From Actinomycetes bacterium (lineage in GTDB: Bacteria > Actinomycetota > Acidimicrobiia > Acidimicrobiales > Ilumatobacteraceae): 40,585 nt of DNA. How positions within the stretch are numbered: position 1 is the first letter of the stretch; the number at the start of each line of letters is the position of its first letter. Under the pieces are notes generated by a model. It was not told the origin of the DNA. It worked only from the letters and a program-made list of their open reading frames with translations, and made no database searches. Location: NCBI GenBank assembly GCA_027491335.1, contig JAIXWJ010000003.1:1-40585 (forward strand). Direction: 5' to 3'. Both the position numbers and the translations under genes were made by a program. Below, in pieces: positions 3,071 to 24,294 of the stretch.

Positions 3071-4114
3071 GTGAACCCTCGTAGAGAATTCCGAGTCAAA
3101 GCCGGCGCAATACTGCTTGTGGCGCTTTCGGTTATTGCTGGATGTGGCGGAACGGAGTCGTCGAGCAAAGATCCCGAACGCGTGCTCGACGAGCCGGATG
3201 GTGGTGATGATTCGTCCGACCAAGATGCGACGGACGAAGAGACAGACAAACCCGAAGACACGACAACGACTAGCGCACCGTTTGCCTCTCCGGCAGACCC
3301 CCGAGAGGCACTAGGTCTCTACTCCTTTTTCAACGGAGGAATTCCGATTTCCGAAGTCTCCGTATCACAGTGCGGCCAATTCGCAGTGGCCTACGACGCA
3401 ATCACGCCACGCTTCCTTGAATTCTCGTCGAATCAATGGGTGGAGCGCTCAAAGTTGATGCCGGCCCTGCACAACTACGCACCGGACAGAGTATTGAGTC
3501 TTGACCTCAACCTCGACGGAGCATTGGAGTTTGTGTTCTTTTTCAACTCTGCCGAGCGAAACGAGGAGAAGCCGTTCGGATCGATCTTCTATCAAGTCGA
3601 CTGCGAATGGAAGTGGGGCGAGATCTATCAGGCAATGACCGGAACATCGACGAGAGCTACCAACCTCGACTTCGACGGTTCAAAGAATGAGCTCTTTGGA
3701 TACAACGTCGAAGATACGGCCGGGTATTTCGTCAAGCATGTACTCCGATACGCGCCTGCCAGTCGAGCGTTCGTGTACGAACCGATCGTTTACGACCCGC
3801 CGCCGGTCGCATGTGTCAGCGCATTTGCGAGCATGTACCGATCAGATAAACCAGATGTCATCGTCTCCTTCTACAACAACTCCGTGATTCGAACACTGCA
3901 GAATTGTCGTGAAGGTGACTGGATCATGGAGGCCAAGAAGCGTCGTTCGGAGTACGAGACGTTTGGAGACGCCGACTACTACGAGGGCAACGTCATCCTT
4001 CTTCAGGATGAAAACGCCAAGGACATCGTCGAAACTCTTTGTGCCTATGTCAACCCAAGTGGCTACTACATCTTTCGAAGAATAAGTCCCGTCTCTATTG
4101 CATGTGAGGATTGA
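3071..4114 (+). CDS. Secreted lipoprotein with FG-GAP/VCBS-like segments
   Basis: 347 residues, GTG start supported by a -10 box 6 bases upstream. Basic N-terminus, hydrophobic stretch and lipobox VIAGC with lipidated Cys25, then a long acidic Asp/Glu/Ser/Thr linker (about 28-75) and a globular domain. The globular part includes LDLNLDGALEFVF and LDFDGSKNELFG, Asp-rich turns like those of FG-GAP/VCBS beta-propeller blades; that assignment is tentative. The protein should be anchored on the outer face of the membrane. It is followed after 6 bases by the large acidic protein gene, so both are likely one unit. The pair lies between direct copies of the clpC tail and looks lower in GC than the flanking genes. 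Confidence 0.7.
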   Translation: MNPRREFRVKAGAILLVALSVIAGCGGTESSSKDPERVLDEPDGGDDSSDQDATDEETDKPEDTTTTSAPFASPADPREALGLYSFFNGGIPISEVSVSQCGQFAVAYDAITPRFLEFSSNQWVERSKLMPALHNYAPDRVLSLDLNLDGALEFVFFFNSAERNEEKPFGSIFYQVDCEWKWGEIYQAMTGTSTRATNLDFDGSKNELFGYNVEDTAGYFVKHVLRYAPASRAFVYEPIVYDPPPVACVSAFASMYRSDKPDVIVSFYNNSVIRTLQNCREGDWIMEAKKRRSEYETFGDADYYEGNVILLQDENAKDIVETLCAYVNPSGYYIFRRISPVSIACED

Positions 4115-9310: not shown

Positions 9311-9316
9311 GCGGTG

Positions 9317-11032
9317 GTGCCCGTGAATCCGAACCGTTCTTTCGCTCCCGACGCGTCGTCGTCGATCACTCTGGACGGCGGCCAAGTGGCGCACCGGAAT
9401 CATGTCGAACAGAGTCGAATTCTCGAGCGACGTCTGTACTCGCCGAGACCGAGCGTGCACACGTTGGTGGGCAACGGGCTGTCCAACCAGACCTTCATCG
9501 AGGCCCCCGAGGGCGTGATCGCCATCGACACCGGCGAGTCCGTGGAAGAGATGCGCGACGCCATCGCCCAGCTGCGCACGGTCTGCGATCGACCGATCGT
9601 GGCGGTGATGTACACCCACTTCCATTACGTCGGGGGCACTCAGGCCGTTTTCGCCGATGGCGCCGCCGCCGATATCCCCATCTGGGCCCACGAAAAGGTG
9701 GCGTACAACCGGGCCCGAACCGCGTCCGAGATCTCCCCGGCGTATTCGCGCGGTCTGGTCGAGCAGTTCGCCATCAACTTGCCCGAATCCGGCCCCGACG
9801 GGCGGGTGAACGTGGGTCTCGGCCACTTCTACCGCAACCCGGCCCATGCCCCGTTCACCTCGGTGTTCGTCCCGCCGACCCACACCTTCGGGTCCGTGGC
9901 CTCCATTCGCGTGGCCGGCCTCGACATCGAGGTCACACTGGCGCCGTCCGATGCCGACGACTCGGTGACGTATTGGTTTCCGGCGTTGGGCGTGGCAGTC
10001 CACAACCTGGTCTGGCCCGTGCTGTTCAACATCTTCGCCATCCGGGGCGAGGAGTATCGCGACCCCCGGGTCCTGCTCACGGGCATCGATCACCTGCTTT
10101 CGCTGGGCGCCGAACACCTGGTGGCGGCCCATGGACCGCCCATGAGCGGGGTGTCGGAGATTCGTCGCCGGGTGACCCGCTACCGCGACTCCATCCAGTT
10201 CCTCTGGGATCAGAGCGTGCGTCATATAAATAGGGGTGTCTTGTCCGCAGACCTGGGGCACGCGATCTCGTTGCCCCAGTCGTACGACGACGATTTCATC
10301 ACCGCCGAGCGATACGGCGTGTCCGAGCACCACGTCAGGCAGATCCGCAACGGACTGTTCGGCTTCTTCGACGGCGATGAATCCCAACTCTTTCCACTTC
10401 CCTCCATCGAACGAAGCGACCGACTGATCGCCGGTTTCGGTGGTCGAGCGAAGGTTCGATCGTTGGTGGCCGACGCCATCGACGCCGACGACGTTCGGTG
10501 GGCCACCGAGATGGCCACGTGGTTGGTGCGATCGACGGATGCCGAGCAAGACGACCGCAACCTTTTGGCGCGCGCGTTGCGCATCATCGGACAACGATCA
10601 TCGGCGGCCAACATTCGAAGTTGGTGCCTCACTCGGGCGCTCAGTCTGGAAGGAGCCATCGACACGTCGCGATTGTTCCAACATCGCTTCGGTCGTCAGC
10701 AGATCCTGGCGTCACCCATCGAGCGATCGGTTCACGTGTTGCGCGTTCTGGTCGATCCGGAGTTGTTGGGAGACATCGATGTGCACGTGGGTTGGGACAT
10801 TGGCGACGGCGTGTCCACCGGCGTGCACTTCCGCAATGGCATCGCGTGCCCCACCGATGGCGACGGCTGCACGGCCGTTCTGCGGTGCACGCTCGAGAAT
10901 TGGGCCGACCTCATGACGGGACGCGCCACGTTGTCGGCGCTCGTGCGAGAGGCGACCGCGTCCATCACCGGTGACGATGTGGCCGCACTGGCCGCGTTGC
11001 GCGCCTGCGACCTCGAAGGACTTCGTTCATGA
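9317..11032 (+). CDS. Alkylsulfatase-like metallo-beta-lactamase-fold protein
   Basis: 571 residues. Residues about 30-300 form an MBL-fold hydrolase domain (AIDTGES strand, then the metal loop), about 310-430 resemble the alkylsulfatase dimerisation domain, and about 440-571 an SCP2-like domain that holds alkyl chains, the order seen in SdsA1/BDS1 enzymes that release sulfate from alkyl sulfates. The metal loop reads THFHYVGG (100-107), whereas active family members have THxHxDHxGG; the Asp-His pair seems deleted. Activity is therefore uncertain, and it may act on another substrate. The ATGA overlap with the arylsulfatase gene (11029-11032) points to a joint role in organosulfate use. No signal peptide is visible. 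Start chosen from the -10 spacing. Confidence 0.8.
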   Translation: MPVNPNRSFAPDASSSITLDGGQVAHRNHVEQSRILERRLYSPRPSVHTLVGNGLSNQTFIEAPEGVIAIDTGESVEEMRDAIAQLRTVCDRPIVAVMYTHFHYVGGTQAVFADGAAADIPIWAHEKVAYNRARTASEISPAYSRGLVEQFAINLPESGPDGRVNVGLGHFYRNPAHAPFTSVFVPPTHTFGSVASIRVAGLDIEVTLAPSDADDSVTYWFPALGVAVHNLVWPVLFNIFAIRGEEYRDPRVLLTGIDHLLSLGAEHLVAAHGPPMSGVSEIRRRVTRYRDSIQFLWDQSVRHINRGVLSADLGHAISLPQSYDDDFITAERYGVSEHHVRQIRNGLFGFFDGDESQLFPLPSIERSDRLIAGFGGRAKVRSLVADAIDADDVRWATEMATWLVRSTDAEQDDRNLLARALRIIGQRSSAANIRSWCLTRALSLEGAIDTSRLFQHRFGRQQILASPIERSVHVLRVLVDPELLGDIDVHVGWDIGDGVSTGVHFRNGIACPTDGDGCTAVLRCTLENWADLMTGRATLSALVREATASITGDDVAALAALRACDLEGLRS

Positions 11033-13356
11033 CTTCCATCCCGCGACCGACACAACCTTTCGCCGGCACGACCGGACGACTGATTCCCGAGTCCACGGGC
11101 GCCCCCGTCCAACAAGTGAAGGCTCCGAACGGAGCACCGAACATTCTCGTCATCATCCTCGATGACGTCGGTTTCGGTTCGTTCGGAACGTTCGGTGGTC
11201 CCGTGCCCACACCGGGGCTCGATCTGGTGGCGCGCACGGGGCTTCGTTACAACCGCTTCCACACCACGGCGTTGTGTTCGCCCACGCGCGCGGCGTTGTT
11301 GACCGGACGCAATCACCACGCGGTGCACATGGGTGGAATTCCCGAGATGGCCAACGGGTTTCCCGGATACGACACCATCATTCCTCCCGAAGCGGCCACC
11401 GTGGCGCAGGTGCTTCGCATGAACGGATACGCCACCGGTTGTTTCGGAAAGTGGCATCTCACTCCGATGTGGGAGATGGGGCCCGGTGGTCCCTTCGATC
11501 GTTGGCCCACCGGTTTGGGCTTCGATCGCTTCTACGGAATTCTGGGTGCGGAGTCCTCGCAGTACGAACCGCCGGTGTACGACCAGACGACGCCGATCTC
11601 GCCACACATCGGTCGCGACGACTACCACCTCACCGAGGATCTGGTGGACCAGGCCATCACCTGGGTCGATCGCGTGCGGGCCTCGTCACCCAACAAGCCG
11701 TTCTTCTGTTACCTGCCCACGCCCGCCGTGCACGCCCCGCACCATGTTCCACGCGAGTGGATCGACAAGTTCGCTGGTCGATTCGACGCCGGGTGGGACG
11801 CGTTGCGCGCCGAGATTTTCCAGCGACAAATCGAGCTTGGTGTGATTCCGGCCGACACCGAACTCACGCCGCGACCCGAGTCGATCATGTCGTGGGACGA
11901 ATACCCCGATCGGTACAAGCCGGTCGCGAGTCGTTTGATGGAGACCTTCGCGGCCTTCCTCGCGCACACCGACCATCACATTCACCGTTTGCTCGACGCG
12001 TTGCATCAGCGAGGCATGTTGGACGACACGCTGGTCTTCTACATCACGGGCGACAATGGGGCATCCGGTGAGGGAACGCTTCACGGTGCGTGGAGTGCTC
12101 CGTCGTTCCAGAACGGGCGACCGGAAGATCCCGAGTGGCTGCTCGAACGCATGGATGACTTCGGCAGTGCCGACTGCGAGAACCATTACAACTACCCGTG
12201 GGCATGGGCGCTGGATTCGCCGTTCCAGTGGATGAAACAGGTGGCGTCGCACTTCGGAGGCACGCGCAACGCGATGGCGGTGTCGTGGCCCAAGCGCATC
12301 GCTGACGCGGGCGGTCTGCGATCACAGTTTCACCATGTGGTCGATGTGGCTCCGACCATCTACGAAGCATGCGGTATCGAACAACCGTCTCGCGTGAACG
12401 GCATCGATCAGATGGAAGTGCACGGAACCTCGATGGCGTACACGTTCGATCAGGCCGATGCTGTCGATCGCCACGAAACGCAGTACTTCGAGATGATGGG
12501 AAATCGCGGCGTCTATCACCGCGGTTGGATGGCCTCGTGTTTCCACGGTCGTCCACCGTGGATTCGGTGGCAAGGCATGCCGTTCGATGGCGAACAAGAG
12601 CGCTGGGAGCTGTACGACCTGCGCACCGACTTCTCGCAAGCCGTCGACGTGGCCGCGAGGTATCCGGAGAAGTTGGCCGAGTTGATGGAGGTCTTCGATC
12701 GCGAGGCTCGACGCAACAGCGTGTACCCGATGCGCGATCCGGGATCGGGGTCGCAACAAGTTGCTCCGGTGCCGATCAGTCTCGGAGACCTCACCAAGAT
12801 GACCTACACCTCGGCGCACGTGCGCATGCCGGAGGCCAACGTGGTGAACGTGAAGAACTCCTCGTGGCGCATGACGGCGGTGATCGACGTCGACGCCGAA
12901 GCTCAGGGAGTGATCGCTTGCCAAGGTGGCAACATGGCCGGGTGGTCGTTGTACCTGTCGACGAGCGGCATACCGACGTTTCATTACAACTGGTTCGGAC
13001 ATCAACACACCTCGGTGGCATCGCCGCACGCTTTGGCCACCGGGCGACACGAGATCGAGATGGTGTTCGCGTACGACGGCGGCTTCGCCGCCGGGGGTGA
13101 CGTGATGTTGTCCGTGGACGGAGTCGTGGTGGCGATGGGTCGCGTTCCCAACACCGTGCCGGTGATCTTCTCGATGAGCGGCGAGACCTTCGATGTCGGC
13201 GTGGACACGGGAGCACCCGTTGGTCCGTATCCGCACCAATTCCCCTTCTCCGGTTCGATCGTGGGGGTGACCATCGAACGCTTGGGGGAACGCCCAGCCG
13301 AGGTGACGGACGCCATGCGGAGCGGTCATATCCGTGCCACCTTGAGTTCCCAATGA
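11029..13356 (+). CDS. Arylsulfatase (formylglycine-dependent)
   Basis: 775 residues, AtsA-type sulfatase. The N-terminal metal-binding strand VIILDDVG holds Asp45-Asp46. The sulfatase signature C-x-P-x-R is CSPTR with Cys83, the residue that FGE/SUMF1-type enzymes oxidise to formylglycine, followed by LLTGRN. A second signature region, GCFGKWHL, lies near residues 131-138. A C-terminal beta-rich region (about 590-775) is typical of long arylsulfatases. It hydrolyses sulfate esters to release sulfate. No secretion signal is evident, so it may act in the cytoplasm or be exported otherwise. It is coupled to the upstream alkylsulfatase-like gene by a 4-base overlap. No formylglycine-generating enzyme lies in the window. 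Confidence 0.95.
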   Translation: MTSIPRPTQPFAGTTGRLIPESTGAPVQQVKAPNGAPNILVIILDDVGFGSFGTFGGPVPTPGLDLVARTGLRYNRFHTTALCSPTRAALLTGRNHHAVHMGGIPEMANGFPGYDTIIPPEAATVAQVLRMNGYATGCFGKWHLTPMWEMGPGGPFDRWPTGLGFDRFYGILGAESSQYEPPVYDQTTPISPHIGRDDYHLTEDLVDQAITWVDRVRASSPNKPFFCYLPTPAVHAPHHVPREWIDKFAGRFDAGWDALRAEIFQRQIELGVIPADTELTPRPESIMSWDEYPDRYKPVASRLMETFAAFLAHTDHHIHRLLDALHQRGMLDDTLVFYITGDNGASGEGTLHGAWSAPSFQNGRPEDPEWLLERMDDFGSADCENHYNYPWAWALDSPFQWMKQVASHFGGTRNAMAVSWPKRIADAGGLRSQFHHVVDVAPTIYEACGIEQPSRVNGIDQMEVHGTSMAYTFDQADAVDRHETQYFEMMGNRGVYHRGWMASCFHGRPPWIRWQGMPFDGEQERWELYDLRTDFSQAVDVAARYPEKLAELMEVFDREARRNSVYPMRDPGSGSQQVAPVPISLGDLTKMTYTSAHVRMPEANVVNVKNSSWRMTAVIDVDAEAQGVIACQGGNMAGWSLYLSTSGIPTFHYNWFGHQHTSVASPHALATGRHEIEMVFAYDGGFAAGGDVMLSVDGVVVAMGRVPNTVPVIFSMSGETFDVGVDTGAPVGPYPHQFPFSGSIVGVTIERLGERPAEVTDAMRSGHIRATLSSQ

Positions 13357-13382: not shown

Positions 13383-14357
13383 GTGAGCGCCCAGCCACTT
13401 TTCGATCTTGCGAACTCGACCGACGATCGTCGTCGTGTGGAGGAGGCCCTGCTGGCCTCGGTGCGCACCCCGGACGCGTATCTCACCGAGATCGCCTCGC
13501 ATCTGCTGGTGGCCGGTGGAAAGCGTTTGCGCCCCATGTTCTCGGTGGTCGCCTCGCAGGTGGCCGGCGCACCCGCCACCGATGATGCGGTGCAGGGCGG
13601 CATTTCGTGCGAGCTGGTTCATCTCGGTTCGCTCTATCACGACGACGTGATGGACGAGTCCCCCACGCGACGCGGAGTGGACACGGTGAACGCCAAGTGG
13701 GGCAACCTGCAGGCGATTCTGGCCGGAGACTTCTTGCTGGCGCGGGCGTCGGAGATCGCGGCATCGCTGGGCACCGAAGTGGCCGGACTGCTGGCACGCA
13801 CCATCGGACGCTTGTGCGAGGGTCAGATCGAGGAACTGCGACACACGTACAACGTGGCTCGCCCGGTCGACAGTTATCTGTCGTCCATCAACGGCAAGAC
13901 CGCGTCCTTGTACGGAACGGCGGCGCGGATCGGCGGACTGGTGTCGAAGTTCGATCGCAAGACCGTCGACGCACTCACCGCATTCGGTGATGCCTACGGA
14001 ATGGTCTTCCAGATCGTCGATGATCTCTTGGACATCTCGTCCACCGACGAACAGTTGGGCAAGCCCGCGGGTCACGACATGGTCGAAGGTGTGTACACCT
14101 TGCCGGTGTTGCACACGCTCGCCAGCGGCGGAGTGCCCGCTCGCGAGTTGGCCGATCTGTTGGGCAAACCGTTGAGCCCGGTGGAAAAGGACAAGGCGTT
14201 GTCGATCGTGCGCTCCAGCGGCGGTATCGACGCCGCGATCGCGTTGGCTCGAACTTACGTGGACGCCGCCGAGCAGGCCTGCGACCAGCTGCCGAACTCG
14301 GCGGCCACCATGGCGCTGCGCGCGACCCCGGCCGCTCTGCTGGCCTCGGTGGGGTGA
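13383..14357 (+). CDS. Polyprenyl diphosphate synthase (trans, long-chain type)
   Basis: 324 residues. Shows GKRLRP (46-51), the first Asp-rich motif DDVMD (87-91) that binds Mg-diphosphate, GKTASL (171-176) and the second Asp-rich motif DDLLD (213-217). It condenses isopentenyl diphosphate onto an allylic diphosphate. Small residues just before the first motif (Gly82, Ser83) fit a long-chain product such as the menaquinone side chain, by analogy with heptaprenyl/octaprenyl synthases; geranylgeranyl diphosphate is a weaker alternative. It heads the stretch that ends with the heliorhodopsin, and ispD/ispF of the precursor pathway lie at 34129-35390. GTG start fits the -10 box. Confidence 0.93.
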   Translation: MSAQPLFDLANSTDDRRRVEEALLASVRTPDAYLTEIASHLLVAGGKRLRPMFSVVASQVAGAPATDDAVQGGISCELVHLGSLYHDDVMDESPTRRGVDTVNAKWGNLQAILAGDFLLARASEIAASLGTEVAGLLARTIGRLCEGQIEELRHTYNVARPVDSYLSSINGKTASLYGTAARIGGLVSKFDRKTVDALTAFGDAYGMVFQIVDDLLDISSTDEQLGKPAGHDMVEGVYTLPVLHTLASGGVPARELADLLGKPLSPVEKDKALSIVRSSGGIDAAIALARTYVDAAEQACDQLPNSAATMALRATPAALLASVG

Positions 14358-14388: not shown

Positions 14389-14562
14389 ATGTGTAGACGA
14401 GTGAATTGCAGTCAATGTGGAAAGCCGTCGTGGGCCGGATGCGGCGCTCACGTGGAGAGCGTCCTGGGAGACGTTCCCAAGAATGAGCGGTGTCGTTGCG
14501 ATGAGCAACCACCCGCGAAGAATCAGCGCAAGGGATTCATCGCCACGATGATGGGTCGCTGA
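14389..14562 (+). CDS. Small Cys-rich protein (GKPSWAGCG family)
   Basis: 57 residues with cysteines at 2, 7, 10, 18, 35 and 37; the pattern CSQCGKPSWAGCGAHVE followed by RCRC matches a widespread, uncharacterised bacterial family of about 60 residues. The paired cysteines suggest one zinc site. A function in redox or metal handling is inference. Its TGA overlaps the ATG of the rhodanese gene (TGATG at 14560-14564), so the two are translated together. Start is set by the -10 box and because the ATG immediately precedes the conserved Cys-Arg opening. Confidence 0.8.
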   Translation: MCRRVNCSQCGKPSWAGCGAHVESVLGDVPKNERCRCDEQPPAKNQRKGFIATMMGR

Positions 14563-14951
14563 TGAGGCGCGCACTGATCATCACCGGAGTCGCGGCCACG
14601 CTTTTGCTCGGATGCGGTGGCGACACGTCGTCCACCGGGGGGAACGAAGCTAAGGCAGCGGTCGAGTCCGCCGTCGAAGCGGGCACCGTCATCATTGATG
14701 TTCGTTCCGTCGAGGAATTCTCGGCCGGTCACCTCGAGGGCGCACTGAACTTCAACGTCGAGGACGGGACCCTCGCCACCCAACTTTCGGTTCTCGATCC
14801 CGCCGCCGAATACATCTTGTACTGCCGCAGCGGTCGTCGATCCGCGATCGCCGTCGACATGATGCGCAACGCCGGATTCGACGCGGTCGTCGACCTGGGT
14901 TCCATTGAGGATGCCTCGAAGTCCACGGGACTGCCGATCACCACCAACTGA
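14562..14951 (+). CDS. Rhodanese-domain lipoprotein
   Basis: 129 residues. Lipoprotein signal with lipobox LLLGC (Cys18), short linker, then a single rhodanese domain (about 33-125) with IIDVRSVEEFSAGHLEGA and active-site loop YCRSGRRS, where Cys88 would carry the persulfide. It is predicted to sit on the outer face of the membrane and transfer or hold sulfane sulfur; the physiological acceptor is unknown. Its translation is coupled to the 57-residue Cys-rich protein. The heliorhodopsin gene starts 64 bases downstream and may be in the same transcript. Confidence 0.92.
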   Translation: MRRALIITGVAATLLLGCGGDTSSTGGNEAKAAVESAVEAGTVIIDVRSVEEFSAGHLEGALNFNVEDGTLATQLSVLDPAAEYILYCRSGRRSAIAVDMMRNAGFDAVVDLGSIEDASKSTGLPITTN

Positions 14952-15004: not shown

Positions 15005-15010
15005 GAGGAG
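15005..15010 (+). promoter_or_regulatory. Ribosome-binding site GAGGAG of the heliorhodopsin
   Basis: GAGGAG ends 5 bases before ATG 15016. Unlike most first genes in this window, this one has a clear Shine-Dalgarno sequence. It decides the start over longer in-frame extensions that would run into the rhodanese gene. Confidence 0.75.
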
Positions 15011-15015
15011 TACCC

Positions 15016-15753
15016 ATGAAGTCGTTGCAACGTCTGAACATCATCGCCACCATCCTGCATCTGGTGCAGGGAGTCGCGATCCTGCTGCTGGCGAATGACT
15101 TCGCATTGCCGGTCACCAGCTTCTTCTGGAACGACGCACCCAACAATCGCCTCGACGTGACGCGTCTGGATCGCATGTTTGATGTGTCGGTTGCCTGGGC
15201 CGGAGCAACGTTCCTGTTCTTGTCGGCGCTGTTTCACTTCATCGTGTCGACGGTTGGTCGCTCCAAGTACGACGGCGAAATCGCTGCGGAGCAGAACCGC
15301 TTCCGCTGGGTGGAGTACTCGATCTCGTCGACGTTGATGATTCTCACCATCTGCCTGGTGTTCGGCATTGGCGATGTGGCGGGCCTCATCGGTATCGCCG
15401 GCGCGAACGTGGCGATGATCTTGTTCGGCTGGATCATGGAAGTGGTCAACAAGCCCGGACGCGAGGTGTGGTGGACGCCGTTCTGGTTCGGCTGCATCGT
15501 GGGTGTGATGCCGTGGATCGGCCTGCTGATTTATCTCTTCGGCCCCGGCGACGAGATGCCCAAGTTCGTGTACGGAATCTTCGTGAGCATCTTCATCTTC
15601 TTCAACTTGTTCGCGCTGAATCAGTATCTGCAGTACCGCAAGAAGGGTCGCTGGGCGGATTACGTGTACGGCGAGAAGATGTATTTGTGGCTGAGCCTGA
15701 TCGCCAAGAGCGCATTGGCGTGGCAGCTCTACGGGAACACGCTCTCCGCCTGA
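15016..15753 (+). CDS. Heliorhodopsin
   Basis: 245 residues with seven hydrophobic segments. It matches heliorhodopsins throughout: LANDFALP in the first extracellular region, FRWVEYSISS with Glu100 as Schiff-base counterion (Glu107 in the 48C12 protein), ILFGW, PFWFGC, PWIGLLIY, the SLIAKSALAWQ motif of helix 7 with Lys231 as the retinal lysine. Heliorhodopsins are light-absorbing retinal proteins inserted in the membrane with the N-terminus inside, opposite to type-1 rhodopsins, and do not pump ions in the members tested. The length is typical. No beta-carotene cleavage or carotenoid gene lies in the window, so retinal must come from elsewhere. The 3' end overlaps the convergent MFS gene by 25 bases. 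Confidence 0.97.
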   Translation: MKSLQRLNIIATILHLVQGVAILLLANDFALPVTSFFWNDAPNNRLDVTRLDRMFDVSVAWAGATFLFLSALFHFIVSTVGRSKYDGEIAAEQNRFRWVEYSISSTLMILTICLVFGIGDVAGLIGIAGANVAMILFGWIMEVVNKPGREVWWTPFWFGCIVGVMPWIGLLIYLFGPGDEMPKFVYGIFVSIFIFFNLFALNQYLQYRKKGRWADYVYGEKMYLWLSLIAKSALAWQLYGNTLSA

Positions 15754-17048
15754 GTCGTGTTTCCGAGGGACGACGGTTCTAGCTGTTGGTCGTTCTCGTC
15801 GTCCGGTTCATCCTGATCAATATCGGCGCGACGCATCACGAAGAGGCCAGCGGTGCCGAGCGAAGCAACGATGGTTGCCACGACCATCAAGCTGATGGCT
15901 CCCGCGTTCGTCTCGAATGCCAGCGTCGTCACGATTCCCGCGAGAAAGGCGATGTTGTACGACAGGTCGTAAGCGGCGAACGTTCGTCCACCGGCCCCGC
16001 GGCGGGCATTCGACTGAATGGTGGCGTCGGTACACAGACGAAGGTTCTGGAAGAAGAAGGCGACGAGTAGAACGTTCGTGAGGTAGGCGAAGCGATCATC
16101 GATGGCGCATGACAGCCCGGTCGACATTGACGTGGCCGCGAAGGTGAGAACCGTCAATGGCTTGCGGTGGAGATGCTCGTTCACCCATTCGGCGGTCAGC
16201 GTTCCGAGAAACGATCCCAGACCGTTGCAGGCCACCACAGAACCGAAGGCGATGGTTGTTCCCGTGGCGAGGGAGTCCACCCGAAGTGCGGTGGCCGCGA
16301 GTATTCCACCGAAGATCAATCGATGCGAACTGGTGGCCACGATGGAGTAGCGAGTCTTGGCATGACGGAACTGTTTCACGACCTCGGCCCACGTGACCTC
16401 CACGTGCTCGGCGCCTCCACCGAGGGGAGTACGAATTCGACACCACATCAGCATGGCCACCGAATGCCCGACGATCACCAGAATCATCGCGGTCACCCCC
16501 ATGTAACGCGAGGCAAGGATCGCGATCGACGCGCCGACGACGCCTGACACCGAACTCAACATCAAACTCAACGAGTTGGCTGCCACCAGTTCGTGATCGC
16601 GGACCACGTGGCGGACGCTGGCGATACGCGCGTTGTACAACACACGATTCGTGCATAGTCCGAGTGCCCACAGCACGGCCGCCGTTCCGGACCAATCGGC
16701 GATCAACACGAAAATGAGCGTCGCGGAGAGAGCGATCCGGAGGAACTGGCCGCTGACCAGAATCGTTCGGCGCGAGAAGTGATCCGCGAGCCATCCGGCA
16801 ACGGGACCGGCGATCAACAAAGGGATGGCGGCCGCCACCACCATGTGCATCAGCCTGGTGTTGGTTGGACCCTCGGAGCGAGCCAGCAGTAGCTGCGTCG
16901 TGAGGATCACCGAGAGAGCCGCGTCGGAGATTTGTCCGAGAACTTGACCACCAATGAGGCGGCGAACGTCCACGTACTTCAGCAATGCCAGACGCGAAAC
17001 ATGAACCGACTTGTCGTGGCGTAGAAGCGTCTTCTCGGCTCGACTCAT
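15729..17048 (-). CDS. MFS transporter (MFS_3/EntS-like exporter)
   Basis: 439 residues from ATG 17048, with about 11-12 hydrophobic segments. Between segments 2 and 3 it has GWLADHFSRRT, the major facilitator motif A (G-x-x-x-D-x-x-x-R-R). The order and the QxxGQ-like start resemble exporters of the MFS_3 group (siderophore or macrolide exporters). Substrate unknown. The acidic C-terminal tail (DQDEPDDEND) is hydrophilic. An open frame continues 41 codons upstream to 17171 but is Arg-rich and unlikely coding. Divergent from the polysaccharide operon, so a role in the same pathway is possible but unproven. Confidence 0.85.
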   Translation of the reverse strand: MSRAEKTLLRHDKSVHVSRLALLKYVDVRRLIGGQVLGQISDAALSVILTTQLLLARSEGPTNTRLMHMVVAAAIPLLIAGPVAGWLADHFSRRTILVSGQFLRIALSATLIFVLIADWSGTAAVLWALGLCTNRVLYNARIASVRHVVRDHELVAANSLSLMLSSVSGVVGASIAILASRYMGVTAMILVIVGHSVAMLMWCRIRTPLGGGAEHVEVTWAEVVKQFRHAKTRYSIVATSSHRLIFGGILAATALRVDSLATGTTIAFGSVVACNGLGSFLGTLTAEWVNEHLHRKPLTVLTFAATSMSTGLSCAIDDRFAYLTNVLLVAFFFQNLRLCTDATIQSNARRGAGGRTFAAYDLSYNIAFLAGIVTTLAFETNAGAISLMVVATIVASLGTAGLFVMRRADIDQDEPDDENDQQLEPSSLGNTTQAESVFP

Positions 17049-17222
17049 GGTCACGTTGTGAAAACTATTGACTCGGTGCGTTCGGTCGCAGTTGTGCCGG
17101 TGAACGATGAGCGTACGTTTGAAGAACAATCGAGTTCGACCCATGTTCCGACGATCCGATTCGTTCACCAACTTGTCGATCGACGGTTGGTTGTTGGCAT
17201 TCCTGCCGAAACCTGGCGTTGT

Positions 17223-17228
17223 TACCTT
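17223..17228 (+). promoter_or_regulatory. -10 box TACCTT of the polysaccharide operon
   Basis: TACCTT is followed by 6 bases and GTG 17235. This supports GTG 17235 as start of the first glycosyltransferase instead of GTG 17058. Confidence 0.55.
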
Positions 17229-17234
17229 CCGTCC

Positions 17235-18302
17235 GTGACGTTCGAGGGGAACTCCGTGCCGGTCGCTTCACCCCTCGTTCCCCGTCACTTCTTCTTTTTG
17301 TGGACGGGCCCATCGTTTCCCCGCATGAATCTCGTCGCCTTGGCGCGGCTGCGTCGACAGGAACCAACTGCTCGAATTTCCGTTCACTTCATCGACTGCA
17401 CACCGACGACGTCGGCGCTCGACGATATTGCGTCGATCACATCCATCGAAGTCAGAGTCGACCGTTCGGCCGACATCCTCGCCGCGTTGCCCGAGCGGAT
17501 GGGGCACGTGTCCGAGGTCTTCGAACGCCTCTCACCCCGGGCTTTGTCCGCTCGGAGCAATCTCGTCCGCTACGCGATTCTTTATGTCCAAGGCGGCATT
17601 TACCTGGACTTCGATGTTCTCGCCATGCGACCGATCGACGACGACCAACTGGGGACGTGTTTCATCGGAGAAGAACTGGTCTGGAGCGCTGATCAGGAAA
17701 GGGTCCGAGGAGCCTGGTGGGTGTGTTTGCGCCCGCGCAACATCGGGTGGGCCGTGGCCTGGTTCGTCCGCTGGATCGACGGACTTCTCTTCTTCGGACG
17801 ATTTCGTACGGCGCGTTTGCTCGACCGGTTGAATTGCCTCTGGAGTCATCGGCAAGTCAACAACGCCATCATTGGGGCCAGGGCCGGCTCAACATTCATC
17901 GAGCGGGTGCTGTTGGACAGTGTGTCAGCCGACCCCACGGTGCGTTACGCAACTGGTCCGACGTTGGTGGATCGGGTGGCCCGTCGCAATCCCGGATTGG
18001 TTTCGATCCTGCCCCCCGAACACTTCTATTTCGTCGCACCGGGAGAGAGTCACCGACTCTTTCGTGATCACACTCTTCGTTTGCCTCACGAGGCCGTCTA
18101 CGTGCACTTCGCCGCTTCGAATCACAAGAAGGTTTTGCGTTCGTTCGAATCCACGGGGAGATGGTGGGGAGATCGTGGCTCGATCATCGGCGACGTCGTC
18201 CAATCGGTTGGATTGGCAACGACGAATCCGAATCGACCGGAATCCTCGATCGACTGGGCATCGCTTCAGTCGCCCATCGATGAGCGGGGAATCCTCCTAT
18301 GA
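17235..18302 (+). CDS. GT32-type glycosyltransferase
   Basis: 355 residues from GTG 17235. The segment SNLVRYAILYVQGGIYLDFDVLA is characteristic of GT32/DXD sugar transferases (for example capsular and mannosyl transferases); LDFD holds the DXD that binds the nucleotide-sugar metal. Upstream lies PRHFFFLWTGPSFP, the usual first strand of this family. A downstream His-rich AVYVHFAASNHKK probably closes the site. It is cytoplasmic or membrane-associated and adds a sugar to a lipid-linked or surface glycan. An alternative start at 17058 adds 59 residues without family similarity and would consume the promoter region. First gene of a seven-gene operon; the next ATG overlaps its stop. Confidence 0.85.
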   Translation: MTFEGNSVPVASPLVPRHFFFLWTGPSFPRMNLVALARLRRQEPTARISVHFIDCTPTTSALDDIASITSIEVRVDRSADILAALPERMGHVSEVFERLSPRALSARSNLVRYAILYVQGGIYLDFDVLAMRPIDDDQLGTCFIGEELVWSADQERVRGAWWVCLRPRNIGWAVAWFVRWIDGLLFFGRFRTARLLDRLNCLWSHRQVNNAIIGARAGSTFIERVLLDSVSADPTVRYATGPTLVDRVARRNPGLVSILPPEHFYFVAPGESHRLFRDHTLRLPHEAVYVHFAASNHKKVLRSFESTGRWWGDRGSIIGDVVQSVGLATTNPNRPESSIDWASLQSPIDERGILL

Positions 18303-19099
18303 CCGAACCATTGGTCAGCTGCTTGATGGTGACCGGAGGAAGGCCCGAATTGGTTCGGCGCGCCGTGTGGTGCTTCCTTTCCCAGTCGTACCCGAACAGG
18401 GAATTGGTGATTCTCTCCGACCACGCACCTGATGAGGTCGAGTTGCGTCCCCTCGAAATGGTGGATTCTCGCATTCGTGTGCGTATGACCGCGCACGATC
18501 CGAATCGCCGGCTGGGTGAGCTACGCAACATGACCATCGACTTGGCTCGCGGAGAGTGGCTGACGCAGTGGGACGACGATGATTGGTACGGATCGCGCCG
18601 AATCGCGGTGCAGTTGAAGGCCGCTATGGACGAGGACAAGGGTGCGAGCGCCCTGAAGTTCACGCTGATGCACTTGTGCTCCGCCGACGGGCGAACGATG
18701 TCATTTCGTGGAGACACCGGAATCGCCACTCCGGGGACCATTCTTCACCGTCGTACCCACGTGCGTTACCCCAACCTCGGCAAGAACGAGGACGGACAGT
18801 TTCTGCGTGCGGTGAGGGACGAACTGGGATTGGCGGTCCTCGGTGAGGAGCACTCATCTTCCTTCGTGAGGGTGTTTCACGGTTCGAACACGTGGGACGA
18901 ACGGCACTTCCTGCGACGACTTCGACGGACGCCGAAGCTTTGGATCGAGTATCAGATCGCAGCCAACTTTCGGCGCGACGTGAGAGAACATCCTCGATTC
19001 CGTTTGCGTCCCGACGAATTGGAAGCCTTGCGAGAACTCACCGAGTATCGGGAGACAGCTGCCTCGATGGCGAGCGCGGACGAAGCGAGAGTTCGGTGA
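18299..19099 (+). CDS. GT2 family glycosyltransferase
   Basis: 266 residues. The GT-A fold start VSCLMVTGGRPELVRRAV is followed by GELRNMTIDLARGEWLTQWDDDDWYG, where the Asp run (about 97-100) is the DXD metal site. The C-terminal third is Arg-rich and amphipathic, which may hold it on the inner membrane. It transfers a sugar from a nucleotide donor; donor and acceptor are not predictable. The ATG overlaps the previous stop by 4 bases (ATGA) and its own stop overlaps the next GTG, so it is translationally coupled on both sides. Confidence 0.9.
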   Translation: MTEPLVSCLMVTGGRPELVRRAVWCFLSQSYPNRELVILSDHAPDEVELRPLEMVDSRIRVRMTAHDPNRRLGELRNMTIDLARGEWLTQWDDDDWYGSRRIAVQLKAAMDEDKGASALKFTLMHLCSADGRTMSFRGDTGIATPGTILHRRTHVRYPNLGKNEDGQFLRAVRDELGLAVLGEEHSSSFVRVFHGSNTWDERHFLRRLRRTPKLWIEYQIAANFRRDVREHPRFRLRPDELEALRELTEYRETAASMASADEARVR

Positions 19100-20571
19100 C
19101 GGCCGTTCTTAGTCCGGATGTGACGACCAACGAGGCTCCGTTGATGAGTCGAGTTCGGGCATTGGCCATCGGGCAAACGTTGGTCAAGGTGTGCTACATC
19201 GCGATCGCTTTCGTGTTGGTTCGATCGCTTACCTCCGGGGTGTGGAACGAGGTCGCCCTGGGCTTGAGCGTTTACATGGTCGCCACTGTCGCCGCCACTT
19301 TGAGTCTCGAACAGAGCATCGTCTATCAGGTTCCGCAGCAAACGAGGAACGCGGCACTCGGTTTCGCTCGGCGCACTCTCGGGACCCTCGTGGGTCTGGG
19401 TGTTGTCGGTGCATTCGTGCTGTGCCTGATCGAGTGGCGATTCGCGATACTTGGTTTCCCCACGATGCTCGCTGTTGCCTTGACGGTGCTGGTCGACGCA
19501 CCTCTCACGATGGTGTCGCCTTGGCTGATCGTCAACCAACGCGAGAACACGGCTGGATGGTGGATGGGATCCTCTGCGGTTCTCATGTTCTGCGGCGTTG
19601 TGTGTGGTTCTTTGCCTTCGGGAGCAACGGCACGAACGATTTTCATTGGGATGGCGATCGCCGCCCTCGTTCGACTCCCCGTGGCGCTTCGACTTCTGTG
19701 GCCCGTCATCGTCCACTCATCGCCCGAGCGAACGTCTATCTCGTTGCGTCTCCAACTGGGATTCTGCGTGCCGCTGGCCTTGGCCTTGACGGGAGGAGTT
19801 CTCACGCGCGCCATCGACAAGTGGATGGTGGCGGTTTTCGACCCGATGTCGCTCGGGTCCTACGTCATCGCGGCACAGGAGATACCGCTGCTGTCGGTGT
19901 TGCCTTTCGCCGGAGCCACGGCGATCGCCGCCTCACTGTCGAAAAAATTGGCCCTCGGTCGAGTGGAGGATGCGTTCGACGAATGGTCGCACCAGGTGAT
20001 CACCATGATCGACGTGGTCGTGCCGATCACACTCGCCTTGACGGTGATCGGACCCGAGCTATTGCGAGTGATGTCCGGCAGAAGTTCGGCGACCGCGGCG
20101 TTGGCGTTCCAGTTGTTCACCCTGATCGGTCTGCATCGAGTCACCGAGTACGGCGCGGTGTTGAGGGCCGCGGGAAGGTCGTCCGACGTGATCAAGGCAA
20201 GCCTGGTGCTCCTCGTACTCAATGGTGCGATGGCCGGAGTGGGTGGTGCGATCGCGGGCATGGTGGGTGTCACCATCGGATCGTTGTGTGCGTTCGTCGT
20301 GGCGTGGTTCTTCGCTCTTCACTTGTTGGGGCGAGTCCTGTCGAAGAGCGTTCGTGAAGTTTTCCCGTGGCTGGTTTGGGCGCGGGCGATAGCGACGTAT
20401 TCGCCACCGATGATCGCCATCTACGCGATCACCTCATCGATCGGCGACTGGACCACTCGTCTGGGTGTCAAGTCCTTGCTGCTGGTCGTGGTGGTGGTCG
20501 GTCTTCGCATCATCGATCGCGGCCGGGACGGAAGCACACGAAAAGCAATGGAAGGAACGAATCGTGAGTGA
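19096..20571 (+). CDS. Wzx-like oligosaccharide flippase
   Basis: 491 residues from the GTG overlapping the previous stop (GTGA at 19096-19099). About 12-14 hydrophobic segments span from residue 25 to near residue 475, with short polar loops and conserved charged positions such as the RAIDKWMV segment (flippase family Arg-x-x-Asp-Lys). This fits the MOP superfamily (Wzx/RfbX) that moves undecaprenyl-linked repeat units across the membrane. No polymerase (Wzy) or chain-length regulator is recognised in the operon, so the glycan may be short or completed elsewhere. The next gene starts 8 bases before its stop. Confidence 0.88.
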   Translation: MTAVLSPDVTTNEAPLMSRVRALAIGQTLVKVCYIAIAFVLVRSLTSGVWNEVALGLSVYMVATVAATLSLEQSIVYQVPQQTRNAALGFARRTLGTLVGLGVVGAFVLCLIEWRFAILGFPTMLAVALTVLVDAPLTMVSPWLIVNQRENTAGWWMGSSAVLMFCGVVCGSLPSGATARTIFIGMAIAALVRLPVALRLLWPVIVHSSPERTSISLRLQLGFCVPLALALTGGVLTRAIDKWMVAVFDPMSLGSYVIAAQEIPLLSVLPFAGATAIAASLSKKLALGRVEDAFDEWSHQVITMIDVVVPITLALTVIGPELLRVMSGRSSATAALAFQLFTLIGLHRVTEYGAVLRAAGRSSDVIKASLVLLVLNGAMAGVGGAIAGMVGVTIGSLCAFVVAWFFALHLLGRVLSKSVREVFPWLVWARAIATYSPPMIAIYAITSSIGDWTTRLGVKSLLLVVVVVGLRIIDRGRDGSTRKAMEGTNRE

Positions 20572-21766
20572 TGTCGTTGTACGCCGCGAAATGCCGCAGG
20601 CATCCATTCCCACGAACGACGTTGTCGATGCCAAAGGGCGACTACGAGTTTTGGTGGTCACGGAAACGTTCCTGCCCCAAGTGAATGGTGTCGTGAACTC
20701 CGTTCTACGAATCCTCGAGCACATGGCCGCACGAGGTCACGAACTGATGGTCGTCGCCCCGGGCCCGGGTCCCGAATCCGTGTCGGGAGTGAACGTCGTT
20801 CGCACGCGTTCGGTGGGACTGCCGGTCTATCGAGAGTTGCGAATCGGTGTGTCGAGAAAGGAACTGGCGTCGGCGATCGATTCGTTCGGACCTGACGTCA
20901 TTCACGTGGCCGCTCCGACGATTCTCGGGAACATCGCCCTCAAGGAAGCGCAACGTCGTGGTATTCCGACCGTGTCCGTCTACCAAACCGACCTGGCTGG
21001 ATTCGCATCCCGCTACCACCTGAGCATCGCCAACTCGGGAATCTGGTCCCATACCGTGCGTGTTCATCGGCGATCGGGGCTGTCGTTGGCGCCGTCCACC
21101 GCCGCGATGTGGGACCTCAGGCATCGGGGTGTGCCGCATGTGAAGCGATGGATGCGCGGCGTGGATGGAGTGAAATTCGCCCCGAGTCACCGTGACGAGA
21201 AATTGCGACGTCTGTGGGCACCGAACGGAGAGGTGATCGTCGGATACGTCGGACGATTGGCTCGAGAGAAGCAGGTCGATCGTTTGGTCGATGTAAGCCG
21301 CATGCCGAACGTGAAATTGGTGATCGCTGGTGACGGACCGCATCGTTCGCGCTTGGAACGCCAGATGCCGACGGCTCACTTCACCGGCTTCTTGCAAGGT
21401 GTGGAACTCAGTCGTTGCTACGCGAGTCTCGACCTGTTCGTGCACACGGGGATCGACGAAACTTTCTGCCAATCGGTTCAGGAGGCGTTGGCGGCGGGGA
21501 TACCCGTGGTGGCACCGGCTCGCGGAGGACCGCTCGATCTGGTCCGTCATGGAGAGAACGGCTATCTCTGGTCCCCGGATTCGGAAGTGTCGTTGATCGG
21601 TGCGGTGAGCGAGTTGGTGGAGAATTCCATCAAGCGCGAGAAGATGGCGTCGCGAGCTCGGGAGTCGGTGATCGAGCGAACGTGGACTTCGGTGATGTCC
21701 GAGTTGGAAGGTCATTACCGTTCGGTGGTGAGTGGTCTCGAGTTCGCGTATCGGGAATTGCGATGA
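20564..21766 (+). CDS. MgtA-like GT4 mannosyltransferase
   Basis: 400 residues. N-terminal GT-B domain starts VLVVTETFLPQVNGVVNSVLR, the hallmark of the MgtA/PimB-type alpha-mannosyltransferases; the C-terminal domain has GYVGRLAREKQVDRL, the VIAGDGPHR loop and the E-x7-E type motif (FCQSVQEALAAGIPVVAPARGG). It probably adds alpha-mannose from GDP-mannose to a lipid or glycan acceptor at the inner membrane. GTG 20564 is chosen because GGAAGGA precedes it closely; ATG 20591 is an alternative. It overlaps the flippase gene by 8 bases. Confidence 0.9.
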   Translation: MSDVVVRREMPQASIPTNDVVDAKGRLRVLVVTETFLPQVNGVVNSVLRILEHMAARGHELMVVAPGPGPESVSGVNVVRTRSVGLPVYRELRIGVSRKELASAIDSFGPDVIHVAAPTILGNIALKEAQRRGIPTVSVYQTDLAGFASRYHLSIANSGIWSHTVRVHRRSGLSLAPSTAAMWDLRHRGVPHVKRWMRGVDGVKFAPSHRDEKLRRLWAPNGEVIVGYVGRLAREKQVDRLVDVSRMPNVKLVIAGDGPHRSRLERQMPTAHFTGFLQGVELSRCYASLDLFVHTGIDETFCQSVQEALAAGIPVVAPARGGPLDLVRHGENGYLWSPDSEVSLIGAVSELVENSIKREKMASRARESVIERTWTSVMSELEGHYRSVVSGLEFAYRELR

Positions 21767-22542
21767 AGAATCGATTCGTCGTCAGCGTCCACGACGTGGC
21801 TCCGTCGACGGCCGAAGCAAGTCGTCGATGGGTGGAGATACTGGATTCGCTGCGTATCAAGTCATCCTTGTTGGTGGTTCCCGGCCGATGGCGTGGTCGT
21901 GACCTGCGATCGAACCCAAGTTTCGTCTCATGGCTGAAAGATGTGGCCGCCAACGGCCACGAAGTCGTCCTTCATGGTTGGGAGCATGCGTCGACGTCGG
22001 TGCTTTCCGGTCCATCTACTTCCACCACCCGTGATCGGTTCGGCCGTCTGATGGCTCGCGGATGCCAGGAGTTCTGGAACCTGGACGAAAACGACGCCAG
22101 AACCCGAATCGAACGGGGGATGGAGACCCTGAGCGAGGTCGGTTTCGATATCCAAGGATTCGTGGCTCCGGGTTGGCTGATGTCGGAAGGAACACGTCGA
22201 GCATTGCGGGCGAGCGGCCTCACCTACACCTGCGACCACACGCGACTCATCGATCTCACGTCGAATCACGCGCGCCGTCTACTGACCACGTCCCAGCGCC
22301 CCAACAGTGTGCTCTCAGTCCCCGGCGCGATGGTGACCTCGGTGATCGCCGGTGCCCATGTGCGAACGGGTCGTTCGTTTCGGATCGCTCTTCATCCCGA
22401 TGATCTCGGATCCGCGCGATTGCGCAACTCCAATATCGCGGCCTGTCAGCGGGCCGTCACGAACGGGTTCGAGTCGAACACCTATTTTCAAGCGTGGTAC
22501 TCGCTTTTCGGTCGCCACGTGATCGGAACGGAGAAGAGCTGA
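21763..22542 (+). CDS. DUF2334 polysaccharide deacetylase-like protein
   Basis: 259 residues; ATG overlaps the previous stop (ATGA). NodB-like fold of the DUF2334 type: VSVHDVAPST at the N-terminus supplies the Asp of the active site, GHEVVLHGWEHAS supplies the two metal-binding His residues, and GFVAPGWLMS the later conserved Pro-Gly region. Members are thought to remove acetyl groups from glycans, though few have been tested. In this operon the likely substrate is the glycan under assembly. No signal peptide is visible, so it would act on the cytoplasmic side, before flipping. Confidence 0.9.
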   Translation: MKNRFVVSVHDVAPSTAEASRRWVEILDSLRIKSSLLVVPGRWRGRDLRSNPSFVSWLKDVAANGHEVVLHGWEHASTSVLSGPSTSTTRDRFGRLMARGCQEFWNLDENDARTRIERGMETLSEVGFDIQGFVAPGWLMSEGTRRALRASGLTYTCDHTRLIDLTSNHARRLLTTSQRPNSVLSVPGAMVTSVIAGAHVRTGRSFRIALHPDDLGSARLRNSNIAACQRAVTNGFESNTYFQAWYSLFGRHVIGTEKS

Positions 22543-22544
22543 TC

Positions 22545-23636
22545 GTGCGCATCGTTCAGGTCGCGAATTTCGTTGGTCCGAAGTCCGGTGGAGCGTCCCG
22601 GGTGATGCAAAGTCTGCGATCCGTCTATCGATTGCGGGGTCATGACGTGGTCGAAGTGGTTCCGCGTTCGAGCGATGCGGCCTTCGATGACGGGCCCGGC
22701 CGTCGAACGATCGCCGGGACCGTCCGACTTCCGGGGTCCGGTGGATATCGCGTTATTAGGGGTCGACGCGAGTTGACGGGTGTTCTCGAAGAACTGAGTC
22801 CGGATCTGGTGGAGCTCTCGGATTTGTCGACATTGACGTGGGTCGCACAATGGTGCTCCGAGAGGTCGATCGATTGCACGGTGATCGCGCACGAACGAAT
22901 CGATCACGCGGTCGGTCGAATCCCGATCATCGGAGGATCATCGAGGTGGTTGAGCCAACGTTGGATCACCACCGTGGAAACTCACGCAACACGGATCATT
23001 TGTCCGAGTCGATTCGCCGCCGAGCAGTTCCTCGATGGACGCAAGGTGGTCGTTCGCCCGTGGGGAGTCGATCACGAGGTCTTTCATCCGAACGGAGCTC
23101 CTTCGGAATGGGGGGAGGAACCCGTGGCACTCGTGGTGTCGCGGTTGTCGCCCGAAAAGTGCGTCGATGACTCCATCAATTTCGCGTTGGGTGTCGTGGA
23201 GGCCAGAGGGGGATTCGTGAGGGTGATCGGAGACGGTCCCTCGAGGCGACGTTTACAGCAAAGGTATCGCGAACGCCCGGTGTCGTTCGATGGTCATGTG
23301 TCCGACCGTTGGGGAGTTGCCGGAGCGATGCGGTCGGCCGATTTCTTGGTGAATCTGGGGCCGGTGGAGACGTTCGGACTCGTCACCCTGGAAGCGATGG
23401 CCTGTGGCGTGCCGGTGGTGGTGCGTAGTCGGGGTGGCGCCGGAGAATTGGTTGATCCAGATGTTGGTTGGTGCCTGACCGACGACGATCTCACTGACCG
23501 CGCATTCTCCGAAAAGGTGTTCGGACGCCGACGTTCCCTGATGAGTCGACGTGCGGCGGAACGAGCATCCGAGTTCACGTGGAACGATGTGGCCGACGTG
23601 ATGATTGGTGCGCGGGATCTCTTTCATGTCCGTTGA
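22545..23636 (+). CDS. GT4 glycosyltransferase
   Basis: 363 residues from GTG 22545, two bases after the previous stop. GT-B enzyme: N-terminal Gly-rich loop VGPKSGGASRV, C-terminal domain with VVSRLSPEKCVDD, the VIGDGPSRRR loop and ETFGLVTLEAMACGVPVVVRSRGG, where the glutamates bind the nucleotide sugar ribose and phosphate. It is a retaining sugar transferase of unknown specificity, a second GT4 next to the MgtA-like one. The gene for the GNAT enzyme starts 11 bases before its stop. Confidence 0.92.
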   Translation: MRIVQVANFVGPKSGGASRVMQSLRSVYRLRGHDVVEVVPRSSDAAFDDGPGRRTIAGTVRLPGSGGYRVIRGRRELTGVLEELSPDLVELSDLSTLTWVAQWCSERSIDCTVIAHERIDHAVGRIPIIGGSSRWLSQRWITTVETHATRIICPSRFAAEQFLDGRKVVVRPWGVDHEVFHPNGAPSEWGEEPVALVVSRLSPEKCVDDSINFALGVVEARGGFVRVIGDGPSRRRLQQRYRERPVSFDGHVSDRWGVAGAMRSADFLVNLGPVETFGLVTLEAMACGVPVVVRSRGGAGELVDPDVGWCLTDDDLTDRAFSEKVFGRRRSLMSRRAAERASEFTWNDVADVMIGARDLFHVR

Positions 23637-24294
23637 CACTTTGCCGTTGGTGATCCGACGATGGGAAGATTCCGATTGCCCAGCGATTGTCGACCTCTTC
23701 ATGCGAACCGCGTTCGCCGATGCGATTCGATTGCCGACGCCACGGGAATTGTCCCCGTACGTCGGGCTTTCCCTGGATTACTACTTCCAGGATCCGACAA
23801 CGGAGATCATGGTTGCTTCGTGTGATGGTGAAGTGGTGGGGTATTCGATCTTCTGCACTGACCCCGAAGCCATGAACCGATGGTTGGCTCGGCGGTCTTT
23901 GCGGATATTCGTTGACGTGATGGAAATGTTGGTGACCGGACGTCTGTCCCGCGTTGGCTGGGGTTTCTATTTGCGTCGAACCTTTGATTCAATTCTGATC
24001 ATGTGGAGTCGCCGCCGTGGTGAGGCCGGGGATCTTCCGCACGCCCACCTGAACATTCGGGAAGGCTTTCGAACCGGTTCGGTGGCGCTTCAGTTGCTGA
24101 ATGGCATCGATGAACAATGTCGTCGTGTCGGAGCCGCCGCGTGGTTGGGCGAAATCAACGGAACCGAAAACACCAGAAGGCGGGCCGTCGAACGACTGCT
24201 GGGTGAAGTGATCGACGTGCGACGAAACGTCACGCATTCGTGGCTCTCGGGCCGGACCGTGAACCGCATCAGCGTCCGACGAACCGTCCTCTGA
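23626..24294 (+). CDS. GNAT family acetyltransferase
   Basis: 222 residues from ATG 23626 (seven further codons upstream are open but would overlap more). LVIRRWEDSDCPAIVDLF is a typical first strand and helix of GNAT enzymes, and a central GEVVGYSIFC matches the second core strand. The usual acetyl-CoA loop (Q/RxxGxG/A) is not clear, but NIREGFRTGSVALQLLNGI occupies its place with R-x-G-S. It may acetylate an amino sugar or its precursor, a fit to the neighbouring deacetylase-like gene. Last gene of the operon, followed by a strong hairpin. Confidence 0.8.
   Translation: MSVDTLPLVIRRWEDSDCPAIVDLFMRTAFADAIRLPTPRELSPYVGLSLDYYFQDPTTEIMVASCDGEVVGYSIFCTDPEAMNRWLARRSLRIFVDVMEMLVTGRLSRVGWGFYLRRTFDSILIMWSRRRGEAGDLPHAHLNIREGFRTGSVALQLLNGIDEQCRRVGAAAWLGEINGTENTRRRAVERLLGEVIDVRRNVTHSWLSGRTVNRISVRRTVL

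Follow-up and report, generated by a model that had tools for sequence, protein, structure and literature searches.

A 48C12-like heliorhodopsin gene from an Ilumatobacteraceae genus in which searches found no known route to carotenoids or retinal

Introduction

How can a bacterium use rhodopsins when none of the known pathways to retinal is found in it? This question is sharpened by the setting of a heliorhodopsin gene in an Ilumatobacteraceae genome (2.52 Mb, 94.6% complete), although the gene itself is one more heliorhodopsin in a well-populated family with solved structures. We analyzed the stretch of 40,585 nucleotides that carries the gene, referred to here as the window (contig C7 of genome G000), together with related genomes, to ask what the protein is, what it might do and where its chromophore might come from.

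Gene structure and family identity

The heliorhodopsin gene lies at 15016..15753 on the forward strand and encodes 245 residues, including the predicted Schiff-base lysine Lys231, the putative counterion Glu100, Ser227 of an SxxxK motif, His15 and His74. The reading frame runs from an ATG at 15016 to a TGA at 15751-15753 with no internal stops, and a Shine-Dalgarno-like GAGGAG (15005..15010, forward strand), as read from the sequence, stands 5 nt 5' of the ATG. An alternative TTG start at 14905, which would give a protein of 282 residues, is unlikely because, counted from the ATG, the Pfam match opens as early as residue 4. A first-pass annotation made from the DNA letters had placed Lys231 in SLIAKSALAWQ and Glu100 in FRWVEYS of a 245-residue heliorhodopsin, and these positions agree with the translation.

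The protein matched the Pfam heliorhodopsin profile PF18761 at 308.9 bits (cut-off 26.7, E = 2.7e-92), aligning with the whole profile from position 1 to position 242, and the NCBIfam model NF038020, "heliorhodopsin HeR", at 288.4 bits against a cut-off of 100. Heliorhodopsin was the sole Pfam family at E <= 0.001, a threshold at which PF01036 (Bac_rhodopsin) gave no match. A sequence search of the PDB (E <= 1) returned 10 distinct sequences, six of them heliorhodopsins and the remainder at chance level: three were 48C12 or near copies of it (250 bits, E = 2e-73 to 3e-73), two were TaHeR (178-180 bits) and one was 9VFC (145 bits), while the best type-1 rhodopsin, 4HYJ, appeared only at a chance-level E = 0.45. 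The profile search proposed with the first-pass annotation, together with the 48C12 fold match described below, therefore bore out its family assignment. We conclude that the window gene is an intact heliorhodopsin and an ordinary member of an already known family.

Predicted fold, key residues and selection

An AlphaFold model with a mean pLDDT of 91.4, built on an alignment of 43 sequences, has seven long helices, with two paired strands in the loop between helices A and B. The alignment was made after 23 duplicates and four incomplete sequences (L037, L059, L060 and L061) had been dropped; a fragment in G020 that tblastn missed, and the heliorhodopsins of genomes without a fetched locus, fall outside it. 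When the model was used in a structure search, the 10 best PDB chains were all heliorhodopsins, with query TM scores of 0.89-0.92; channelrhodopsins and type-1 rhodopsins came next, at E = 1.5e-4 and weaker.

Among solved structures the closest was the 48C12 heliorhodopsin (6SU3, 6SU4, 6UH3), whose host has been described as an uncultured freshwater actinobacterium (PMC8612252). The window protein is 50% identical to 48C12 over its full length and its model superimposes on 6SU3 with a TM score of 0.92 over 245 aligned columns, with the same lysine, counterion and two histidines; it differs in an N-terminus about 8 residues shorter and in small loop differences. TaHeR, from a Thermoplasmatales archaeon (6IS6, 7U55), likewise has the same fold and key residues, but its identity to the window protein is only 38-39%. 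In the model, helix 7 (residues 216-243) holds S227-LIA-K231 with K231 at mid-helix, and E100 is in helix 3, so the prediction agreed with the first-pass proposal of a lysine within the helix bundle; based on the match to 6SU3, E100 and K231 would face each other.

Residues K231, E100, H15, H74 and S227 were invariant in all 43 aligned sequences and correspond to K241, E107, H23, H80 and S237 of 48C12, of which we take H23 and H80 to be functionally important. The loops contain 8 lysines and arginines on the N-terminal side versus 3 on the opposite side, a small difference that is in the direction of the inverted, N-inside topology. E107 has been reported as the counterion in 48C12 (PMC9385722), and SxxxK has been given as a heliorhodopsin criterion (PMC8612252).

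Of 13 full-length pairs compared, 12 had dN/dS ratios (Nei-Gojobori) of 0.03-0.17 and one was saturated at silent sites; the ratios are rough because several dS values exceeded 1. At the codon level these pairs show the signature of purifying selection on the heliorhodopsins of the genus, which argues that the protein is in use. Sequence and model together thus establish the fold, the Schiff-base lysine, the counterion position, a conserved pocket and purifying selection, as far as a predicted structure can; beyond family membership, we infer rather than observe the light response, the binding of retinal and the partner.

Distribution among related genomes

Heliorhodopsin was found in 43 of 81 genomes, comprising 17 of 24 in the genus, 37 of 49 in the family-level group and 6 of the 32 others of the order. 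Type-1 rhodopsins were found in 6 of the 24 congeners, five of which, the window's genome included, have both kinds; one congener (G007, estimated to be 97% complete) has neither.

In a tree of the 43 sequences the window protein grouped with those of G024 (a member of another genus), REEB451 and WB6_2A_070 (support 98/89, starred), and with none of the 11 other congener sequences. Heliorhodopsin fragments from two sister species, too short for the tree, were 96-97% identical to the window protein over 70 (G002) and 30 (G015) residues. The 12 congener sequences in the tree gave 6 label changes, at least 4 of them forced by well-supported branches, so there are at least 3 heliorhodopsin lineages in the genus. 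On the tree, these lineages would have arisen by transfer or by uneven loss of old copies.

Genes surrounding the heliorhodopsin

Upstream of the heliorhodopsin, on the same strand, are genes for a polyprenyl diphosphate synthase (13383..14357), a cysteine-rich small protein of 57 residues (14389..14562) and a rhodanese-domain protein of 129 residues (PF00581; 14562..14951), whose start is overlapped by the stop of the small protein and whose N-terminus reads as lipoprotein-like. The rhodanese gene ends 64 nt 5' of the heliorhodopsin, and it is possible that the two are co-transcribed. Downstream, a convergent MFS transporter gene on the reverse strand (15729..17048) overlaps the 3' end of the heliorhodopsin by 25 nt, and this overlap is also found in G002 and G015. 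Orthologues of the MFS transporter were confined to 3 of 49 genomes searched, namely G000, G015 (93% identity) and G002 (68-71%), the remaining matches being no more than about 34% identical.

Of the 23 other congeners, 14 carry the polyprenyl diphosphate synthase at 80-95% identity, including one partial match. Its best NCBIfam matches were nonaprenyl and heptaprenyl types, below their cut-offs, and the CrtE model scored only 118 bits versus 247 bits for the best model; this long-chain synthase therefore offers no evident carotenoid link. In 16 relatives (13 congeners and 3 from other genera), the region 3' of the synthase showed no small protein, rhodanese, heliorhodopsin or MFS gene, with L149 and L150, which end within 0.7 kb, being uninformative on the heliorhodopsin, and L148, L151, L153 and L154, which end within 1.5 kb, saying little on the MFS gene.

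The contigs compared indicate that the location of the heliorhodopsin is variable and not conserved across the genus. The MFS orthologue is limited to three genomes and always faces a heliorhodopsin, and the pair probably dates from an ancestor of the three sister species. The neighborhood comparison, in which neighbors were read with a rough ORF script that left the heliorhodopsin unmarked in, and hence excluded, L052, L080, L083 and L084, revealed no conserved operon partner around the window heliorhodopsin. None of the adjoining genes is shared by enough genomes to make a safe partner candidate, and the occupation of several unrelated places within one genus calls for caution in deducing heliorhodopsin function from neighbors. 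A single scan for heliorhodopsin on viral contigs, based on a pair of short peptide patterns, gave 4 candidate stretches, none of which was confirmed.

Several features of these regions are recorded here as separate observations. In five congeners, heliorhodopsins 63-71% identical to that of the window adjoin a divergent metallo-beta-lactamase-type gene (loci L049 in G019, L050 in G010, L052 in G001, L058 in G014 and L048 in G011), and the L049 copy matches alkyl-sulfatase domains. In the window, an alkyl-sulfatase-type metallo-beta-lactamase gene and a sulfatase gene lie between clpC and the polyprenyl synthase (9314-13356). The clpC-synthase distance is about 0.17 kb in G019 and G001, so the pair is missing there, and 4.4 kb in G009, a spacing that would fit the pair. 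Past the heliorhodopsin and MFS genes, positions 17058-24294 hold glycosyltransferase genes, a DUF2334 gene and a gene that matches MatE weakly, short of the cut-off; together they are probably a surface-glycan cluster. Two adjoining ORFs of 795 and 347 residues (4121-6508 and 3071-4114) had no Pfam or PADLOC match.

Proposed role

The product of the window gene is a genuine heliorhodopsin of the 48C12 type, and we think it fairly probable that it serves as a light-sensing regulator whose chromophore reaches the cell from outside, either as retinal or as a carotenoid precursor. All-trans retinal would be bound at Lys231 and isomerized there by light, with Glu100 acting as counterion, and the resulting conformational change would be relayed to a partner protein through the cytoplasmic face; such a relay would make the protein a light-sensing regulator and not a pump. 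Less certainly, the retinal, or a carotenoid that can be cleaved to it, may be acquired from the surroundings. Heliorhodopsins have been reported as regulators of a glutamine synthetase, a photolyase and an ABC transporter (PMC9529153, PMC9769723 and PMC11109279).

Based on the reported action of a heliorhodopsin on a membrane transporter (PMC11109279), the product of an adjacent gene, either the convergent MFS transporter or the upstream rhodanese, could be what the window heliorhodopsin regulates. The MFS orthologue faces the heliorhodopsin in all three genomes that carry it, and we found no sigma-70-like promoter or terminator-like site between the rhodanese and heliorhodopsin genes. However, the MFS gene is on the opposite strand and so forms no operon with the heliorhodopsin, and in G002 it has diverged while the 70-residue heliorhodopsin stretch there is 96% identical. 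The rhodanese-heliorhodopsin pair was seen in the window alone, the G002 and G015 contigs stopping inside the heliorhodopsin, short of that place, and heliorhodopsins 78-87% identical to the window's have other gene neighbors. We therefore regard regulation of an adjacent gene's product as unlikely. Transport of protons or other ions has a precedent in V2HeR3 of a giant virus, a light-activated proton transporter among heliorhodopsins (PMC9448325), but is very improbable here: the window protein is nearest to 48C12 among solved structures, an abstract of 2021 stated that ion pumping had not been demonstrated for heliorhodopsins (PMC8612252), and a pump is already present in the genome, since another gene encodes a type-1 rhodopsin that resembles xanthorhodopsin and has a pump-like motif.

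Source of retinal

As light-sensing membrane proteins, heliorhodopsins need retinal (vitamin-A aldehyde), and searches of the genus for genes that would supply it were negative. Blh (PF15461) was found in none of the 24 congeners and in 5 of the 81 genomes searched, and phytoene synthase (PF00494) in none of the 24 congeners and in 22 of the 81 genomes. Just 7 of the 24 congener genomes reach at least 90% completeness with no more than 5% contamination, and PF00494 was found in none of these. In 14 control genomes PF00494 was found in 7 and PF15461 in none, so the five relatives with Blh are its sole positive control. Among the 43 heliorhodopsin genomes, 38 had no PF15461 match and 33 had no PF00494 match.

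Since the genus yielded none of the known genes for these pathways, retinal may be taken up; scavenging, or else synthesis by some route not yet recognized, is the probable source. Similar cases have been described. Actinobacteria of the Luna-1 group, many of whose genomes have both a heliorhodopsin and a type-1 rhodopsin, have been proposed to depend on exogenous retinal, most being without blh but with crtB (PMC12422013). Aurantimicrobium minutum has been reported to contain retinal and C50 carotenoid genes in the absence of the known retinal genes (PMC7734400), and for this reason the absence of Blh is no proof of uptake. The window's genus goes further than these published cases in that no carotenoid entry enzyme was found: in Luna-1, crtB and crtY are reported in 82-83% of genomes (PMC12422013), compared with PF00494 in 0 of 24 congeners here. 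In the open-access literature we found nothing on the retinal or carotenoid supply of Acidimicrobiia heliorhodopsins or rhodopsins, a search that left subscription papers mostly outside and novelty unproven.

The precedent of A. minutum also raises the alternative that the cell produces its own retinal in some unrecognized way, perhaps through the action of one of its two RPE65-type oxygenases (G000 C21:8780-10057 and C48:6311-7612) on an unusual precursor, and that the heliorhodopsin is a self-sufficient photosensor. Genes of the RPE65 family, which is broad, were present in all 24 congeners. For both oxygenases the best NCBIfam model was that of the 8'-apo-carotenoid 13,14-cleaving enzyme (412 and 516 bits, cut-off 675) and the best PDB matches were carotenoid 9,10-dioxygenases or NCED1; neither was closest to the retinal-yielding 15,15' enzymes, and lignostilbene-cleaving enzymes scored well too, which leaves room for a different substrate. 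Moreover, with no PF00494 in the genus, no C40 carotenoid precursor is expected. Synthesis within the cell thus seems unlikely, and uptake from the surroundings is the reading that we prefer.

Type-1 rhodopsin and CrtR-like desaturases

The sole PF01036 match in the window's genome is a type-1 rhodopsin (locus L085; G000 C66:2694-3323, reverse strand) that is closest to xanthorhodopsin (175 bits) and has Asp-Thr-Glu at the places that we take to be the pump motif. A carotenoid antenna on this rhodopsin was unsupported, as a helix 5 Trp is aligned with the xanthorhodopsin glycine that presumably makes room for the antenna. Only 0.2 kb away, on the opposite strand, begins a divergent FA_desaturase gene (C66:3566-4564) that scores 72 bits to CrtR. 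An FA_desaturase gene was also found about 1.4 kb from the type-1 rhodopsin of G014, and none was seen in the 19 remaining regions with a type-1 rhodopsin that were examined.

Across the 81 genomes, an FA_desaturase gene was within 1.5 kb of at least 7 of 69 rhodopsin matches, and a further case, in G021, was found by BLAST at a contig end. These eight cases were counted as four arrangements because five of them look like one inherited arrangement. Among the matches listed, four arrangements compare with 0.29 expected (P = 2e-4), a value that makes the proximity only a lead because the test was post hoc, the match list was incomplete and one gene family was tested. We regard the association of CrtR-like FA_desaturases with rhodopsin genes as a weak lead. 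In the open-access literature, subscription papers being mostly outside the search, nothing was found linking heliorhodopsin with a carotenoid hydroxylase. If the lead is followed, we speculate that a genus without carotenoid synthesis runs two unrelated kinds of rhodopsin on a scavenged chromophore, and that CrtR-like enzymes modify the scavenged retinoid or carotenoid to place a modified retinal, for instance a hydroxylated or desaturated one, in both the heliorhodopsin and the pump, a scheme that we consider quite improbable.

The window heliorhodopsin has no FA_desaturase neighbor. Such genes adjoin some heliorhodopsins of another lineage, which are 40-47% identical to that of the window, and for three of these desaturases that were tested the best NCBIfam model was the beta-carotene hydroxylase CrtR, at 55-100 bits versus a cut-off of 475.
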